A DNA stretch of 64,000 nucleotides from Zobellia uliginosa (GTDB lineage: Bacteria > Bacteroidota > Bacteroidia > Flavobacteriales > Flavobacteriaceae), in assembly GCF_900156625.1 (NCBI RefSeq), contig NZ_FTOB01000001.1, positions 682,001 through 746,000 of the forward strand, in the 5' to 3' direction. Shown here one piece after another: positions 25,288 to 58,403 of the stretch. Both the position numbers and the translations under genes were made by a program. The notes under the pieces are model-generated. The model did not search any database and was not told the DNA's origin. It saw nothing but the letters and a program-made list of their open reading frames with translations. Within the stretch, counting starts at the first letter, position 1; every line of letters starts with the position of its first letter.

Positions 25288-25578
25288 TTATTTAACTTGT
25301 ACGTTGCTTTTGACACCTTCTACAAAAACCTTAGCGGGCTTAAATGCAGGAATATTGTGTGCCGGTATTTTAATGGTGGTGTTCTTGCTGATGTTTCTTC
25401 CGGTCTTCTCAGCTCTTGTTTTAATGATAAAACTGCCAAAACCACGAAGGTAAACATTATCTCCACCTTCCAAAGAAGATTTCACCTCTTCCATAAAACT
25501 CTCAACTGTGGCCTGTACATCTCCTTTTTCAATTCCCAGCTTGTCTGAGATTTTCGATACAATTTCTGCTTTCGTCAT
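25288..25578 (-). CDS. hup: HU-family DNA-binding protein
   Basis: A 96-residue nucleoid protein. The N-terminal helices (MTKAEIVSKISDKLG) and the GFGSFIIKTRAEKTGRN motif leading to the DNA-binding arm with its tip proline (IPAHNIPAFKPAK) are those of HU. It bends and compacts DNA as a dimer. A TATATTTG -7 element lies 39 bases upstream. Probably co-transcribed with the small basic ribosomal-type gene. Confidence 0.92.
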   Translation of the reverse strand: MTKAEIVSKISDKLGIEKGDVQATVESFMEEVKSSLEGGDNVYLRGFGSFIIKTRAEKTGRNISKNTTIKIPAHNIPAFKPAKVFVEGVKSNVQVK

Positions 25579-52044: not shown

Positions 52045-52077
52045 AAAAAAGTGTGTATTTTTTACACACTTTTTTAT
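52045..52077 (+). terminator. Terminator of the PnuC operon
   Basis: aaaaaagtgtgta and tacacactttttt form a perfect 13-base stem with a 5-base loop. The stem also carries the TACACAC word that recurs upstream of the PepSY-like genes. Confidence 0.8.
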
Positions 52078-52082
52078 GTTTT

Positions 52083-52107
52083 TACACACCTGTATACAAG
52101 TGGTGTA
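52083..52107 (+). promoter_or_regulatory. Possible activator site upstream of PepSY-like gene 1
   Basis: TACACAC at 52083-52089 and the inverted form GTGGTGTA at 52100-52107, the latter 69 bases before the -24/-12-like box. Similar sites occur at the same distance for genes 2 and 3. Confidence 0.4.
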
Positions 52108-52175
52108 TGGGGTGGATTGGAATTAATTTAATGATAATCAGGTGTTTAGTGTGTTTTGGGCGAAAATGTTTTGAG

Positions 52176-52192
52176 TTGGCATCATTTTCTCT
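52176..52192 (+). promoter_or_regulatory. Sigma-54-like promoter of PepSY-like gene 1
   Basis: TTGGCATCATTTTCTCT. GG and TC are separated by 10 bases as in -24/-12 promoters (TGGCAY ... TTGCW), with the -12 G replaced. The same box stands at 52825 and 53622. Confidence 0.5.
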
Positions 52193-52242
52193 TGGTACTA
52201 AGAGATTATCAAAACAAATCAATAATTTAAAACACACACAAA

Positions 52243-52548
52243 ATGAAAAACTTAATGTTTGCTGCAGTATTGTCTTTAGGTACAATGACTGCTTTTGCAC
52301 AAGAAGAAACAGTAGTAGAAGAAACAGTAGCAACCGAGGTTGTTGAAGCTCAAGATGCTTTTGCTGAAGTAGCAGTTGAAGAAGTTCCTGCCGCTATCTC
52401 TGAAGCTTTAGAGGCTGCCCATCCAGGTGCAACTATCTCTAAAGCCTTCATGAACAAAGATGCCCAGTACAAATTGGAAGTTGCCAAAGAAGATGGTGAA
52501 ACTGCTGAATTGTATGCTGACGCTGAAGGTAACTGGATCGAAAAATAA
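52243..52548 (+). CDS. PepSY-like secreted protein 1
   Basis: A 101-residue exported protein: signal MKNLMFAAVLSLGTMTAFAQ, an acidic Glu/Val/Thr linker (EETVVEETVATEVVEA), then a single PepSY-like domain (EVPAAISEALEAAHPGATISKAFMNKDAQYKLEVAKEDGETAEL) ending NWIEK. First of four paralogues. The family is found in the envelope and probably binds or inhibits other proteins; no partner is known. Own terminator and own promoter box. Confidence 0.8.
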   Translation: MKNLMFAAVLSLGTMTAFAQEETVVEETVATEVVEAQDAFAEVAVEEVPAAISEALEAAHPGATISKAFMNKDAQYKLEVAKEDGETAELYADAEGNWIEK

Positions 52549-52585
52549 GCTAACACTTTATTAGCAGCATAGTTAGATAGTTAGT

Positions 52586-52622
52586 AAAAGGCCCCATCTT
52601 CATTTGAAGGTGGGGCTTTTTT
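52586..52622 (+). terminator. Terminator of PepSY-like gene 1
   Basis: gccccatcttca and tgaaggtggggc pair (one G-T) around two bases, followed by six T. Confidence 0.88.
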
Positions 52623-52733
52623 AATATATACCTCAATAGGGTTACGGTTCAAAAGATACTGTATACGAAGGAGGGTGTTGCAGATACCTCGTTCGGGTAC
52701 CGTATGGTTATTCGTATACATTTTACACACCAA

Positions 52734-52761
52734 AACGCTAAAAATACACACAATTACACAC
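52734..52761 (+). promoter_or_regulatory. Three phased TACACAC sites upstream of PepSY-like gene 2
   Basis: TACACAC occurs at 52734, 52745 and 52755, spaced 11 and 10 bases apart, i.e. on one face of the helix. The last one starts 70 bases before the promoter box. Such phasing suits an activator bound as an oligomer. Confidence 0.5.
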
Positions 52762-52824
52762 TTGATATATTTTAAGAAATAGTTATATATCTGTAAATCA
52801 AATAATTATGCTTGTTTTGTGATT

Positions 52825-52841
52825 TTGGTATCATTATTTCT
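52825..52841 (+). promoter_or_regulatory. Sigma-54-like promoter of PepSY-like gene 2
   Basis: TTGGTATCATTATTTCT, same layout as the boxes of genes 1 and 3, 36 bases before the ATG. Confidence 0.5.
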
Positions 52842-52877
52842 TTAAGGTATACAGTTATTAATTCTAAAGAACACATC

Positions 52878-53183
52878 ATGAATAAGATATTTATCACAGC
52901 AGTATTGGCATTAGGAAGTCTTTCGGCTTTTGCCCAAGAGGAATCTACGGCAGTTGAAGCGGCAGCCACTGAGGCAGCAGCTACCCAAGATGATTTTTCC
53001 GAGGTATCTGCCGATGAGTTGCCCGAAGCGGTGACCGCAGCAGTTGCTAAAAACTACCCTACTGCATCTATTGATAAAGCATACGTAAACGAAGCAAAGC
53101 AGTTCAAGCTAGAGGTTTCTCTAGAAGATGGTACTGCCGGTACTTTGTACGCTGACGAAAATGGTAACTGGATTGAAATGTAA
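52878..53183 (+). CDS. PepSY-like secreted protein 2
   Basis: A 101-residue paralogue with signal MNKIFITAVLALGSLSAFAQ, an Ala/Glu-rich linker (AVEAAATEAAATQDDFSEV) and a PepSY-like domain (ELPEAVTAAVAKNYPTASIDKAYVNEAKQFKLEVSLEDG) ending NWIEM. The ATG at 52878 begins the signal; an earlier in-frame ATG lies in the promoter region. Its terminus resembles gene 1 (GNWIE), its core resembles genes 3 and 4. Confidence 0.8.
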   Translation: MNKIFITAVLALGSLSAFAQEESTAVEAAATEAAATQDDFSEVSADELPEAVTAAVAKNYPTASIDKAYVNEAKQFKLEVSLEDGTAGTLYADENGNWIEM

Positions 53184-53223
53184 ATAACTTGAGTTATTTG
53201 TTTTGTATCAAGTTGGTTTGGTC

Positions 53224-53258
53224 AGAAAGGGGTTGCATCTGCAGCCCCTTTCTATTTT
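53224..53258 (+). terminator. Terminator of PepSY-like gene 2
   Basis: agaaaggggttgc and gcagcccctttct form a near-perfect stem followed by a T-rich stretch. Confidence 0.85.
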
Positions 53259-53683
53259 ATATAAGGTCTTAACTTTTTAAGGAGCCGAAATTATAAGGTG
53301 GGGTGGCCATCATACCCAGTTAACAAAAAAAGGAAATTACAGTATTGCTATTAGCTTCCTATAGTACCGATACGGGCTTGTCTATTAAAGGGAAGAAGGT
53401 CTTAATCTAAAATGGTCTGGCATAAGTTGCCCGGATTTTTTGCTTTTAGACCTGATTCATCCCAAGAAATTAAAAAAGCCTAAGGCTTGGGTTTTACATT
53501 GCGATGGTTGGTTGTGAAATTATTACCCAAATGAAACAGAATTTTACAATAATACACAGTTTTGAAAACCAATAAAATATGTAAGGTGCTGTTCTTTAGT
53601 TATTTAGTGTTTTTATGGGATTTGGTATCATATTTTCTATACACTAACTGAAATTAATTAATAACACATAACACCTGAATATC
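53254..53683 (+). other. Long leader region of PepSY-like gene 3
   Basis: No gene seen. The 3' third holds the activator-like sites (TACACAG at 53553-53559, with TTTTACAAT just before) and the promoter box at 53622-53638. The first two thirds (53260-53520) hold nothing I can interpret. Confidence 0.5.
53622..53638 (+). promoter_or_regulatory. Sigma-54-like promoter of PepSY-like genes 3-4
   Basis: TTGGTATCATATTTTCT, 45 bases before the ATG of gene 3. No such box precedes gene 4, which is therefore likely read through from gene 3. Confidence 0.5.
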
Positions 53684-53989
53684 ATGAAAAAATTATTTAT
53701 CACCACCGTTTTTGCATTAGGAAGTTTAACTGCATTCGCTCAAGAAGAGCAAGCTACTGACGCTACAGAAACAGCTGCTGAGGCTGTGGCCCAAGATGCT
53801 TTTGCCGAGGTTGCTTTGGAGGAAGTTCCGGAAGCCGTTACTAAAATGGTTGAAACCAACTATCCTGGAGCTACGATCAACAAGGCTAGCAAGAATGAGG
53901 CTAACCAGTACAAATTGGAAGTTTCTTTGGAAGATGGTACTTCTGGAGCCCTTATCGTTGATGAAGAAGGCAACGCCGTTCAACAATAA
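53684..53989 (+). CDS. PepSY-like secreted protein 3
   Basis: A 101-residue exported protein: signal MKKLFITTVFALGSLTAFAQ, a linker (EEQATDATETAAEAVAQDAF), and a PepSY-like domain ending DEEGNAVQQ. Nearly identical to gene 4; the differences are a handful of residues in the linker and helix (KMVETNYPG against AMIETNYPG). No terminator between genes 3 and 4. Confidence 0.8.
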   Translation: MKKLFITTVFALGSLTAFAQEEQATDATETAAEAVAQDAFAEVALEEVPEAVTKMVETNYPGATINKASKNEANQYKLEVSLEDGTSGALIVDEEGNAVQQ

Positions 53990-54063
53990 AAAGCGCCTAG
54001 CGTTTAGTTCCCCCACATTAAATTTTACCATTAGTTAGTTACACATATAAAAATAAGAATATT

Positions 54064-54369
54064 ATGAAAAAATTATTTATCACTACCGTTTTCGCATTAG
54101 GAAGTTTAACTGCATTCGCTCAAGAAGAGCAAGCTGCTGACGCTACAGAGACAGCTACTGAAGCTGTAGCCCAAGATGCTTTTGCCGAGGTTGCCTTGGA
54201 AGAAGTTCCGGAAGCCGTAACCGCAATGATCGAAACCAACTACCCAGGCGCTACGATCAACAAGGCAAGCAAGAACGAAGCTAACCAATACAAATTGGAA
54301 GTTTCTTTGGAAGATGGTACTTCTGGTGCCCTTATCGTTGATGAAGAAGGTAACGCCGTTCAACAATAG
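54064..54369 (+). CDS. PepSY-like secreted protein 4
   Basis: A 101-residue near-copy of gene 3, 74 bases downstream. Signal, linker length and C-terminus are the same. DNA identity is high but third-position changes are scattered, so the duplication is not brand new or is maintained by selection. Ends at a strong terminator. Same unknown envelope function. Confidence 0.8.
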   Translation: MKKLFITTVFALGSLTAFAQEEQAADATETATEAVAQDAFAEVALEEVPEAVTAMIETNYPGATINKASKNEANQYKLEVSLEDGTSGALIVDEEGNAVQQ

Positions 54370-54411
54370 GAAGAACTAAATTGTCGGAAGAAATTCCGAA
54401 CCAATTTTGAG

Positions 54412-54442
54412 AAAGGAACCGTGATATAACGGTTCCTTTTTT
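54412..54442 (+). terminator. Terminator of PepSY-like genes 3-4
   Basis: aaaggaaccg and cggttccttt pair around an 8-base loop, followed by T. Confidence 0.88.
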
Positions 54443-54547
54443 GTGTTTTGCCCCTTTTTTAAAAATATCTTTTATGATAAATTTAGAGGAGAGACAGCTT
54501 TCTTGTGCTATTTTTACGTAGATAGATACAGAATACTAAACAGCTTT

Positions 54548-55930
54548 ATGCCAAACCTTTTAATCATTGAAGATGACGCCGCTTTTTGTCAGATGCTTCA
54601 AAAGTTTTTGACGCGACACGGCTACGAAGTAGAGACGAGCTTTACAGCCCCAGATGCCAAGGAAAAATTCGGGAAAACCGATTTTGATTTGATATTGACC
54701 GATTTGCGTTTGCCCGATTATGACGGTATACAGTTACTGACCGATATAAAAGAGGTGAGCCCAAAGACCCAGGTAATCGTTATGACCGGTTATGCTGAGG
54801 TTGGTACGGCCGTAAATGCCATGAAAAAGGGGGCTTTTGACTACATTTCGAAGCCTTTTACCCCCGACGAAATCGTAATGATCTTAGACAACGCCTTAAA
54901 GGTAGAGGTCAGTATGGCCCAAACCAAACCAATTGAGGGCGAAGGGTCGAAAAAGGATCCGAAACAAAATGGTTCCAAGCCGGCCAGCTCGGAGGGAAGA
55001 ACGAATACTATAGTTAAAGGGGTGAGCGAGGCTTCCAAAAAATTGGAAGATTATATAAAATTGGTGGCCCCTACCGATATGTCGGTTTTAATTACCGGTG
55101 AAAGCGGAACGGGTAAGGAGGTGACGGCCAAGGCCATTCACGATAATAGCAGGCGGAAGGACTTTAATTTTATTGCTGTCGACTGTGGTGCCATACCCAA
55201 AGAATTGGCGACAAGTGAGTTTTTTGGACATATAAAGGGAAGTTTTACCGGAGCGGTAGAAGATAAAATAGGAAATTTTGAAGCTGCCAATAAGGGGACT
55301 TTGTTCTTGGATGAGGTGGGTAACCTATCGTACGAGAACCAAATACAGTTGCTTCGCGCCCTGCAGGAAAGAAAAATAAAACGCGTAGGTAGTACAAAAG
55401 AGATTGATGTAGATGTGCGTATCATTACGGCTACGAACGAAGATCTGACCGAGGCAGTGGAGAAAGGTACTTTTAGGGAAGACCTTTTTCATAGATTGAA
55501 TGAATTCTCCATACAGATTCCTTCCCTAGAGGAACGATTCGAGGACTTGATGTTGTTTGCCGAGAATTTTTTGAACAAGGCGAATGCAAGCTTGGATAAA
55601 AACGTTGACGGATTTTCTTCGGAAGTTTGGGAAGCTTTTCAGCAATACCACTGGCCGGGTAACCTTCGTGAACTACAGAATGTAGTAAAAAGGGCCGTGT
55701 TGTTGACCACGGGCGATGAGGTTCAAATGGAAGCCTTGCCACGAGAGGTGCTTCAACCGCAAGAAAAAACGACTACCATAGAGAATTTTTCAAAATCGGA
55801 ATTTGAAAAGGACCGCATTATCAAGGCCTTGAAAAAAACCAATTTCAATAAGTCGAAGGCGGCAAAACTACTTCAGGTTACACGGAAAACGCTTTATAAT
55901 AAAATCAATCATTATAATCTGGACTTGTAG
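54548..55930 (+). CDS. NtrC-family sigma-54-dependent response regulator
   Basis: A 460-residue regulator: receiver domain (residues 1-120; IIEDDAAFC, phospho-Asp in LILTDLRLPDYDG, KPF), a central AAA+ domain with GESGTGKE (Walker A), GSFTGA (the sigma-54 contact loop, usually GAFTGA), LFLDEVG (Walker B) and RLNEFSIQIPSLEER, and a Fis-type HTH (NKSKAAKLLQVTRKTLYNKINHY). The start ATG at 54548 gives the usual N-terminus (MPNLLIIEDD). It ends convergent with the hybrid kinase, overlapping it by 26 bases. It lies next to the paralogues with sigma-54-like promoters. Confidence 0.93.
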   Translation: MPNLLIIEDDAAFCQMLQKFLTRHGYEVETSFTAPDAKEKFGKTDFDLILTDLRLPDYDGIQLLTDIKEVSPKTQVIVMTGYAEVGTAVNAMKKGAFDYISKPFTPDEIVMILDNALKVEVSMAQTKPIEGEGSKKDPKQNGSKPASSEGRTNTIVKGVSEASKKLEDYIKLVAPTDMSVLITGESGTGKEVTAKAIHDNSRRKDFNFIAVDCGAIPKELATSEFFGHIKGSFTGAVEDKIGNFEAANKGTLFLDEVGNLSYENQIQLLRALQERKIKRVGSTKEIDVDVRIITATNEDLTEAVEKGTFREDLFHRLNEFSIQIPSLEERFEDLMLFAENFLNKANASLDKNVDGFSSEVWEAFQQYHWPGNLRELQNVVKRAVLLTTGDEVQMEALPREVLQPQEKTTTIENFSKSEFEKDRIIKALKKTNFNKSKAAKLLQVTRKTLYNKINHYNLDL

Positions 55931-58403
55931 CCAGGCGCTCTTTGAGTTCGCTTGTTAAATCGGCCACATCTGATGTTAAATTCGCAAATGAACCTGAAAG
56001 GGTCTTATGGTCCATGGTTTTTGGGGTCGCAACTTCCATGTGTTCCAATGCAACTACACAGCTTTGGGCTTTCAGCTGCCTAAACATGGGCAACATACGA
56101 TGGGCTACTTGATTTACCTGAGGGTAGTCTTGTGCACCTACCGTTTCCTCAAGAAGTTTCATATTGGTTTCCGTGTCGCTTAAAAAGGTACCCAGTACGT
56201 CTTGGATCGCATCTTCGTTCCTTCCTAAAAAAGAATGGATGATATCAAGGTTATATAATTTGGGTTCACGGCCAAGGGCCGCTGTCTTCTTTCCTTCTTT
56301 GGGCGCTTCGTCTTGGGTAGTAATGCCCAGTAGCTTGAGTGTGGCAATAAGTTCCCCTTTTGGAAAGGGTTTTTGCAGCACTTGGGAAAATCCGACCCCA
56401 ATATAGGCTTCCGGTCCTAGGTCTCTTCTGCCGGTCATGGCAACGATAGGTTGGTCGGTATAGTGCTTGTAGGCCCCGGATTTGAGTTTTTTCAATACTT
56501 CAAACCCAGTTACCTGTGGCATTTGAATATCGGTAAGTACTATATCATAGGCCAAGTGGGAGTCTTTTTCTATGGAAAGAAAATTGGTAAAGGTATGCGT
56601 CGTAATGCCCATACTCTCTGCCAGTTCGCGTAACATATGTAATAAGGCCGTATCGTCGTCAATAATCAACATACGTAGTTTGGGGGCCAAGTAGGGCATT
56701 TCCTTATTTGGCTTTTTTACCGCATCGGTAATTTCAAGGGGTAGCTGTAGGGTAAACGTACTTCCTAAGCCCAATTGGCTTTCAAGGGTCAAGCTGCCCT
56801 TTAAGAGTTCGGCCAGTTTTTTTGAAATGGTGAGTCCTAGTCCGTGACCGCCAAACTTTTTATCCGTATCACTGTCGGCCTGGGTAAATTCCTTGAATAT
56901 TAAATGTTGTTTTTCCTTGGCAATGCCTATACCTGTGTCGACCACTTGAATACGTGCCGTTATGGCCTTGTCCTTGCCCTTGGTTGCGGTGGCTATGATC
57001 TTAATTTGGCCCTGCTCGGTAAACTTAAAGGCGTTGCCCATAAGGTTGGTCAGTATTTGTCGAATTCTGAACGGGTCGCCCAATACGGTTTGCTGAAGTT
57101 GTGGGGCGATTTCCAAGATTAATTTTAGGCCTTTTTGCACGTTTAGGGCCTGAAGGTTTTCTGCGGTTTCTTGAATCAAATGGGCCGGGATAAAAGGAAC
57201 CTTTTCGATTTTGAGCTTACCTGCTTCCAGTTTTGAAAAATCGAGTAGGTCGTTCACTAGATTGCCAACATATTCCGAGGCCGATTTTACATTCTTTATA
57301 TAACCGTTTTGCTTGCGGGTAAGTCCTGTGCTTTCGAGTAGTTCCGAATATCCGCTAATGGTATTTAACGGCGTGCGCAAATCGTGGCTTACGGTAGAGA
57401 TTAGCTGCTCGCGACTCTTTAAAAGCGACTCGGAGAATTTTTTTTCTTTTTCTAACCGCATTCGATAGGTCTGTACTTTCCAATAGTCCCTCGTAATCAA
57501 AAAAGAAAAGATGCCCACGATCATAAAACCAAGAAGTGCCGCCAAACCGGCGATCCGGGTAGTTCTTTTTAGGGTTTCCCGTTTTACGATACTGGTGTTG
57601 TAACTGCTGGCTATAATTTCTTTTTCAAAGGCGGCAATAATGTTTTGGAGCTGGCGCGAGAGTTCAAGGTCATTACGGTTTACCTCGATTTCCTTTTGCG
57701 CCAAGGAGCGTTGCGATCGGGTATCGGCCAATTTGGCCTTTTTCAGCATAGCTTTTGAAACGTTCAAAATAGAATCTACATAGGCGGCGTTCTTGGTGTT
57801 ATCGCCTGAATTGGGAACATTTTTGCTGATCAGGTCGGCATAGTCCCTTAGGGATTGCTGCACCTTTGGCGACAACTGGTCGAAGTCGGTAAAAAGGTTT
57901 TCTGCTGAAAATTTGCCGAAGGATTCCTCTATTTTTTCAAATTCCTTTAAGGCCTTGTCCAACGAATTGGCCGATTTGCTTTTGACTTTCAATTTTCGCA
58001 ACTCGTTGTTGTTGCTTACTTTTTGGCTCAATAGAATCTGCAGGCTATCTAACAGACTTTTTTGTTCTTCGCCCAACATCAGCTGCTTTAGGGTGTCGAT
58101 TTCTATCTGTATGGAGTCTATTTTAAGGGCGTAGGCATCAAAATTGATTTTCTCGTCGCTCTGTAGGGCGAGCTTAGAAAGACTTTCGGCCTCGTAAAGA
58201 TTGGTCATCAACGAACTTGTCCGCAGTAATTTTTCATCGTTTACATCGGCGGTTTCGGTTGAAATATAGGTTTGTATCTCGGTATATACGAAATAACCGA
58301 CGGCTGCCGCCAGCATCGCCAAAATAAGATAGCTGGCGATAATTTTTAAGGTGAATTTGTTTTTAGATTTTTTAGAGGCGTTTACCATGTTCGTATGTTC
58401 CAC
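55905..58403 (-). CDS. Hybrid sensor histidine kinase with receiver and Hpt domains
   Basis: An 832-residue membrane kinase. Helix 1 near residues 18-40, a helical extracytoplasmic sensor to about 280, helix 2 near 285-308, HisKA with VSHDLRTPLNTISGYSE, HATPase (NLMGNAFKFTEQG, DTGIGIAKEK, GGHGLGLTISKKLA), a receiver domain (LIIDDDTALL, phospho-Asp in IVLTDIQMPQVTG) and a C-terminal Hpt with histidine in VNQVAHRMLPMFRQL. The terminal Hpt could pass phosphate to the NtrC-type receiver encoded convergently. The sensor ligand is unknown. Confidence 0.92.
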   Translation of the reverse strand: MEHTNMVNASKKSKNKFTLKIIASYLILAMLAAAVGYFVYTEIQTYISTETADVNDEKLLRTSSLMTNLYEAESLSKLALQSDEKINFDAYALKIDSIQIEIDTLKQLMLGEEQKSLLDSLQILLSQKVSNNNELRKLKVKSKSANSLDKALKEFEKIEESFGKFSAENLFTDFDQLSPKVQQSLRDYADLISKNVPNSGDNTKNAAYVDSILNVSKAMLKKAKLADTRSQRSLAQKEIEVNRNDLELSRQLQNIIAAFEKEIIASSYNTSIVKRETLKRTTRIAGLAALLGFMIVGIFSFLITRDYWKVQTYRMRLEKEKKFSESLLKSREQLISTVSHDLRTPLNTISGYSELLESTGLTRKQNGYIKNVKSASEYVGNLVNDLLDFSKLEAGKLKIEKVPFIPAHLIQETAENLQALNVQKGLKLILEIAPQLQQTVLGDPFRIRQILTNLMGNAFKFTEQGQIKIIATATKGKDKAITARIQVVDTGIGIAKEKQHLIFKEFTQADSDTDKKFGGHGLGLTISKKLAELLKGSLTLESQLGLGSTFTLQLPLEITDAVKKPNKEMPYLAPKLRMLIIDDDTALLHMLRELAESMGITTHTFTNFLSIEKDSHLAYDIVLTDIQMPQVTGFEVLKKLKSGAYKHYTDQPIVAMTGRRDLGPEAYIGVGFSQVLQKPFPKGELIATLKLLGITTQDEAPKEGKKTAALGREPKLYNLDIIHSFLGRNEDAIQDVLGTFLSDTETNMKLLEETVGAQDYPQVNQVAHRMLPMFRQLKAQSCVVALEHMEVATPKTMDHKTLSGSFANLTSDVADLTSELKERLATSPDYND

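Follow-up and report, generated by a model that had tools for sequence, protein, structure and literature searches.

Do the three small paralogous genes that precede a response regulator gene in Zobellia uliginosa have sigma-54 promoters, when the -12 half of each promoter-like box lacks its G? An earlier note on this DNA had proposed such promoters, with activator sites upstream, and had counted the missing G against them. The reading we favour, with a probability of about 0.86, is that these promoters depend on sigma-54 and an enhancer, that the neighbouring response regulator switches them on, and that they have a lineage-specific -12 element and usually a likely bend site between activator sites and box. 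The genes of the cluster are given below; coordinates are those of the window, that is, the whole 64-kb stretch of DNA that was analysed.

52243..52548, + strand: gene 1, open reading frame for a small secreted PepSY-like protein of 101 aa; PF11396 below its curated cut-off, member by family profile
52878..53183, + strand: gene 2, open reading frame for a PepSY-like paralogue of 101 aa; PF11396 weak, member by family profile
53224..53253, + strand: terminator-like hairpin 3' of gene 2
53684..53989, + strand: gene 3, open reading frame for a PepSY-like paralogue of 101 aa; PF11396 weak, AlphaFold domain
54064..54369, + strand: gene 4, open reading frame nearly identical to gene 3 (96% identity)
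54408..54443, + strand: terminator-like hairpin 3' of gene 4, separating it from the activator gene
54548..55930, + strand: response regulator and sigma-54 activator, with receiver (PF00072), AAA+ (PF00158) and Fis-type HTH (PF02954) domains
55905..58403, - strand: convergent hybrid histidine kinase (HisKA, HATPase, receiver), the likely partner

The products of genes 1–4 carry a signal peptide, as judged by eye. Their PF11396 (PepSY_like) scores are 17.4–23 bits, below the curated cut-off of 28.3, and 50 of 69 homologues match PF11396 at E <= 0.01. The AlphaFold model of the gene 3 product has one domain at about residues 41–100 (pLDDT mostly 86–90; strand-helix-three-strand), preceded by a low-confidence signal and acidic linker. 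Top matches in a fold search with this model include the Bacteroides periplasmic proteins 4dsd, 3elg and 4poi, at weak E-values of 0.05–0.26. The window proteins thus resemble PepSY_like proteins and these structures by a weak sequence match and by being among the best fold matches, but differ in scoring below the cut-off and in having, behind an acidic linker, only about one domain of 60 residues. They are probably small periplasmic PepSY-like proteins. Genes 3 and 4 (53684–54369) look like a recent tandem duplication, and another genome of the genus has three copies of the gene 3/4 type.

Each of genes 1–3 is preceded by a box of the -24/-12 type.

52176..52192, + strand: gene 1 box TTGGCATCATTTTCTCT, conserved in orthologues; predicted +1 at 52203
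52825..52841, + strand: gene 2 box TTGGTATCATTATTTCT; predicted +1 at 52852
53622..53638, + strand: gene 3 box TTGGTATCATATTTTCT; predicted +1 at 53649

These positions, reported before, proved exact, and the three are the only instances of TTGGYATCAT in the window (0.30 expected; three were reached in 1 of 100 shuffles). All three have the -24 element TGGYAY with its GG. The final C of the -12 half falls at 52191, 52840 and 53637, which confirms the claimed GG-to-C spacing of sigma-54 promoters and leaves 52, 38 and 47 bases to the ATG of genes 1, 2 and 3. The -12 half of gene 1 reads TCTC. No box was found before gene 4 (54064), which is probably on the transcript of gene 3.

The same box was collected from 148 distinct promoters, where its consensus is TTGGYAYnATwTTTYCW, i.e. 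T-TGG-Y-A-Y-n-A-T-w-T-T-[T/C]-[T/C]-C-[A/T], with a constant GG-to-C spacing. The TGG[CT]A[CT] of this set was fixed by the search rule. The -12 C is present in 85%, a figure to be read with the search rule, which gave preference to C at this place and to TT directly ahead of -13. No base was favoured at -13, the position before the -12 C, and there T was found in 69%, C in 22% and G in 6%. The C of the classical -12 GC dinucleotide is therefore kept, while its G is mostly T or C. Because the GC is missing, we class the boxes as a flavobacterial variant rather than as classical sigma-54 promoters.

Candidate activator sites lie 70–125 bases 5' of the -24 element.

52045..52075, no strand: gene 1 palindromic activator site AAAAAAGTGTGTATTTTTTACACACTTTTTT, with core TGTGTA-5-TACACA
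52083..52089, + strand: gene 1 second activator site, TACACAC
52102..52107, - strand: gene 1 third, inverted half site (GGTGTA on the + strand)
52724..52730, + strand: gene 2 activator site, TACACAC
52745..52751, + strand: gene 2 activator site, TACACAC
52755..52761, + strand: gene 2 activator site, TACACAC
53553..53558, + strand: gene 3 activator site, TACACA

The TACACAC-type sites described previously are real, but one of them had been misplaced at 52734 and lies at 52724, so that the gene 2 sites are spaced 21 and 10 rather than 11 and 10. The strongest site of gene 1, the palindrome at 52045–52075, and the TACACAC at 52083 had been missed. The window holds 13 matches to TACACAM, six of them within 52051–52761. 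The palindrome is also terminator-shaped and may serve the upstream DUF4301 gene in that role.

Of 138 non-redundant upstream regions, 129 contain TACACA or its complement, where dinucleotide shuffles give 26; this is a measure of conservation rather than of independent trials, since orthologous promoters are not independent samples. In 31 orthologous promoter pairs a TGTGTA-type and a TACACA-type site stand 11 bases apart as a palindrome, TGTGTAnnnnnTACACA. Copies of the site are spaced by 10, 20 or 30–31 bases. Relative to the box, site positions have a 10.5-bp period (R = 0.70, against 0.05–0.33 for control periods of 7–9, 12 and 13), the helical phasing of upstream activator sites that goes with sigma-54.

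Between the TACACA sites and the box there is often an IHF-type site, overlooked earlier. This is the textbook placement of an IHF site in sigma-54 promoters.

52132..52148, + strand: gene 1 likely bend site, TGATAATCA plus IHF-type AATCAGGTGTTTA, one mismatch to the consensus WATCAANNNNTTR
52796..52808, + strand: gene 2 likely bend site AATCAAATAATTA, an exact match to WATCAANNNNTTR
25312..25578, - strand: HU/IHF-family protein (PF00216; G000:C16:707312-707578), a candidate bender not otherwise tied to the cluster

The consensus WATCAANNNNTTR was found at fixed positions, on one strand in 28 of 138 promoters and on the other in 33; shuffles gave about 2.4 for either strand. Exact matches are thus present in under half of the promoters, and promoter 3 gave no IHF-type match. 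Of the two HU/IHF-family proteins that the genome encodes, one is the window protein listed. A further motif, TGATWATCA (52132–52140 and orthologous promoters), recurs in 23 of 138 promoters (0.3 expected), close to the IHF-type site and at a constant position; it may be part of that site or a separate one.

The regulator has the features of an NtrC-family activator: the PF00158 sigma-54 interaction domain, the Fis-type HTH (PF02954), and the GSFTGA loop noted before, a one-residue variant of GAFTGA found at codons 55238–55255. Orthologues of it were found in 80 Flavobacteriaceae loci, drawn from named genome records; the Z. amurskyensis activator is 93% identical. The hybrid kinase adjoins the activator in 80/80 loci, and PepSY-like genes, detected with a profile built from the four window proteins, are present at 76/80. 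A box was found at 70/80, several of the remaining loci being cut by contig ends, and at least one box with an upstream site in 67 of the 68 loci having a usable box. The genome (5.3 Mb) has one RpoN (single PF04552 match, E 5.9e-52). About 70 loci keep box, upstream sites, spacing and adjacent activator as a set, and the sigma-54 reading of the boxes gains support.

Could one of the other activators drive these promoters, with the neighbouring regulator controlling something else? The genome has five PF00158 activators with strong scores, the neighbouring one and four others. Activator, kinase and PepSY genes nevertheless stay together in nearly all 80 loci, and the TACACA sites go with the cluster: neither TACACA nor TGTGTA was found at any of seven ompH promoters with the TTTC box, which comes from several genera at this gene. 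Strict box patterns searched for around the four others gave no convincing promoter. We consider such an arrangement improbable. With four other sigma-54 activators in the genome, we assign the promoters to the neighbouring one from its position next to these genes and from the lack of TACACA at ompH. In a genome-wide search for sites plus box, as the earlier note had advised, with 60–90 bases allowed between sites and box, there were 8 matches against 2 in the control, and only the three from the cluster, two of which share the gene 2 box, join TACACA to a clear box outside genes. Promoter 1 falls outside this pattern by one base of its -12 half (TCTC).

A two-component circuit, as judged from comparison of these loci, appears to control the secreted PepSY-like proteins through a conserved TACACA-IHF-box module. 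In the circuit we propose, genes 1, 2 and 3(-4) would each be under their own enhancer-dependent sigma-54 promoter, dependent on rpoN and on the regulator and starting at the predicted +1. The convergent hybrid kinase would phosphorylate the neighbouring response regulator, which would bind the helically phased TACACA/TGTGTA sites 70–125 bp 5' of the -24 element. An HU/IHF-family protein would probably bend the DNA at the IHF-type site in between, and the GSFTGA loop would remodel RNA polymerase-sigma-54 held at TTGGYAY-n5-TTTC. The absence of G from the -12 half would reflect a sigma-54 that, in Flavobacteriaceae, has ceased to need this base.

The missing G was pursued through the genome, by pattern searches and stretches of limited length, and beyond. 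The pattern TTGGYAYn5TTTCW matches the genome 17 times (control, 9 times), and six of the 17 matches lie outside genes. All six are 38–154 bases 5' of an ORF start, and they precede genes 2 and 3, ompH/Skp, a BamD-like gene, a gene for a SPOR-type protein and one for a further protein (all names but genes 2 and 3 were assigned by reading the sequences). The last four are candidate sigma-54 promoters elsewhere in the genome (L165:4693, L166:4139, L167:4577 and L168:4577). The classical TTGCW form was not enriched in this genome (9 matches against 8, mostly within genes), and a box search allowing three mismatches gave too weak a contrast to be informative (286 against 231). Searched for in 119 Flavobacteriales genomes, TTGGCAYnnTWTTTTCW was matched 37 times and its control 7 times, and many of the 37 matches stand before ompH, SPOR, TonB, PorP/SprF-type and PepSY-like genes. 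The box TTGGCACGATATTTTCT, the same as in the cluster, precedes ompH in five genomes (G000, G032, G126, G241 and G248).

ompH is the gene that settles the matter of the G. In Flavobacterium psychrophilum sigma-54 starts have been mapped for ompH (at 753817), groES, dnaK, grpE and other genes, and mutagenesis backs one promoter, as described in the text of that study (PMC9723704). With the G-less box found at ompH in several Flavobacteriaceae genomes and the F. psychrophilum ompH start mapped to sigma-54 in that text, the missing G ceases to be a point against sigma-54. The G-less -12 half is the normal form in Flavobacteriaceae, and it is the most interesting part of the finding. No report of a missing -12 G in Bacteroidota was found in the literature; it could show in the logo of the F. 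psychrophilum motif SM4, which was not viewable.

The same evidence bears on whether the boxes are those of a different sigma factor, either the primary sigma-A or an ECF sigma, and only look like -24/-12 elements. The missing G would fit this, as would the AT-rich DNA, with 13 sigma-70-like matches in the region. It is opposed by the constant GG-to-C spacing, by activator and bend sites at fixed distances, by a consensus without the TAnnTTTG box of sigma-A, and by the presence of this box at ompH, a sigma-54 promoter by the mapping in a relative given in the text of PMC9723704. Another sigma factor is, we judge, highly improbable.

Under sigma-54, the base that replaces G at -13 is specific to the family, T in f1 and mostly A in f5, where TTGGCAYnnTTTTTACW boxes lie 44–57 bases ahead of two genes, one zinc-peptidase-like and one of outer-membrane type (L228-L241, L245). 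In f11 C stands at -13, before dnaK, and in f9 G (a TTGC box), before a TonB-like gene. In a thin phylum-wide scan, one genome outside the class (G431) had six matches against 0 in the control, five of the six with the classical G.

Changes in RpoN accompany these promoters. In E. coli-type sigma-54, H377, S379 and R383 read the -12 GC (PMC9770992), E378 is implicated genetically in -12 recognition (PMC4496707), and promoter DNA has been crosslinked to E378 and R383 (PMC5505868). Nearly every genome read has one RpoN. In 27 of 27 Flavobacteriales RpoN (L009, L257-L284) two residues of the helix-turn-helix differ, H377 being replaced by D or N and E378 by V or I, with S379 and R383 kept. At residue 394, where E. 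coli has R, f1 has Y, f5 has N and the others mostly have Y or F. The f9 RpoN has D377 and I378, yet a TTGC box, so the H377/E378 changes permit loss of the G and do not dictate it.

That f9 case, like the AT-rich DNA, would also suit a simpler account of the missing G alone, in which it was lost by relaxation in AT-rich genomes and sigma-54 specificity is unchanged. Relaxation is compatible with the circuit we favour. It sits less easily with a replacing base that is family-specific (T in f1, A in f5) and with the change of two residues implicated in -12 recognition in every RpoN read; we give it somewhat less than even odds. We see an even chance that Flavobacteriales have drifted away from a sigma-54 promoter code regarded as near-universal: once H377 and E378 had been replaced, the base at -13 would have come to differ by lineage (T in Flavobacteriaceae, A in f5, C or G in others), and residue 394 (R to Y, N or F) may have tuned it.

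The promoters described here share with classical sigma-54 promoters (TGGCAC-N5-TTGC) and NtrC-type activators the GG-to-C spacing, upstream enhancer sites, an IHF-type site between and an AAA+ activator. They differ in having TTTC, TTCC or TCTC for TTGC, TACACA-type sites, and PepSY-like secreted targets. The SM4 motif of F. psychrophilum, mapped by 5'-end RNA-seq, likewise represents flavobacterial sigma-54 -24/-12 promoters, including that of ompH; compared by its text, without the logo, that paper (PMC9723704) does not describe the PepSY genes, their activator or the activator sites. By analogy with the envelope-stress theme of the flavobacterial sigma-54 regulon in the same text, the PepSY-like products are perhaps an envelope-stress output. 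RpoN paralogues of Rhodobacter and Bradyrhizobium whose promoters differ at -11 or -12 (as cited in PMC3162934) likewise show small natural shifts in -12 recognition that go with sigma-54 variants, but in that account they belong to species with several RpoN copies, whereas here the change is common to a bacterial family, mostly with one RpoN.

The paired change of sigma factor and promoter makes -12 specificity testable, as residues 377, 378 and 394 against the -13 base. Most of these promoters would escape a search seeded with TTGC, so that in a large environmental family the sigma-54 regulon may be under-counted.
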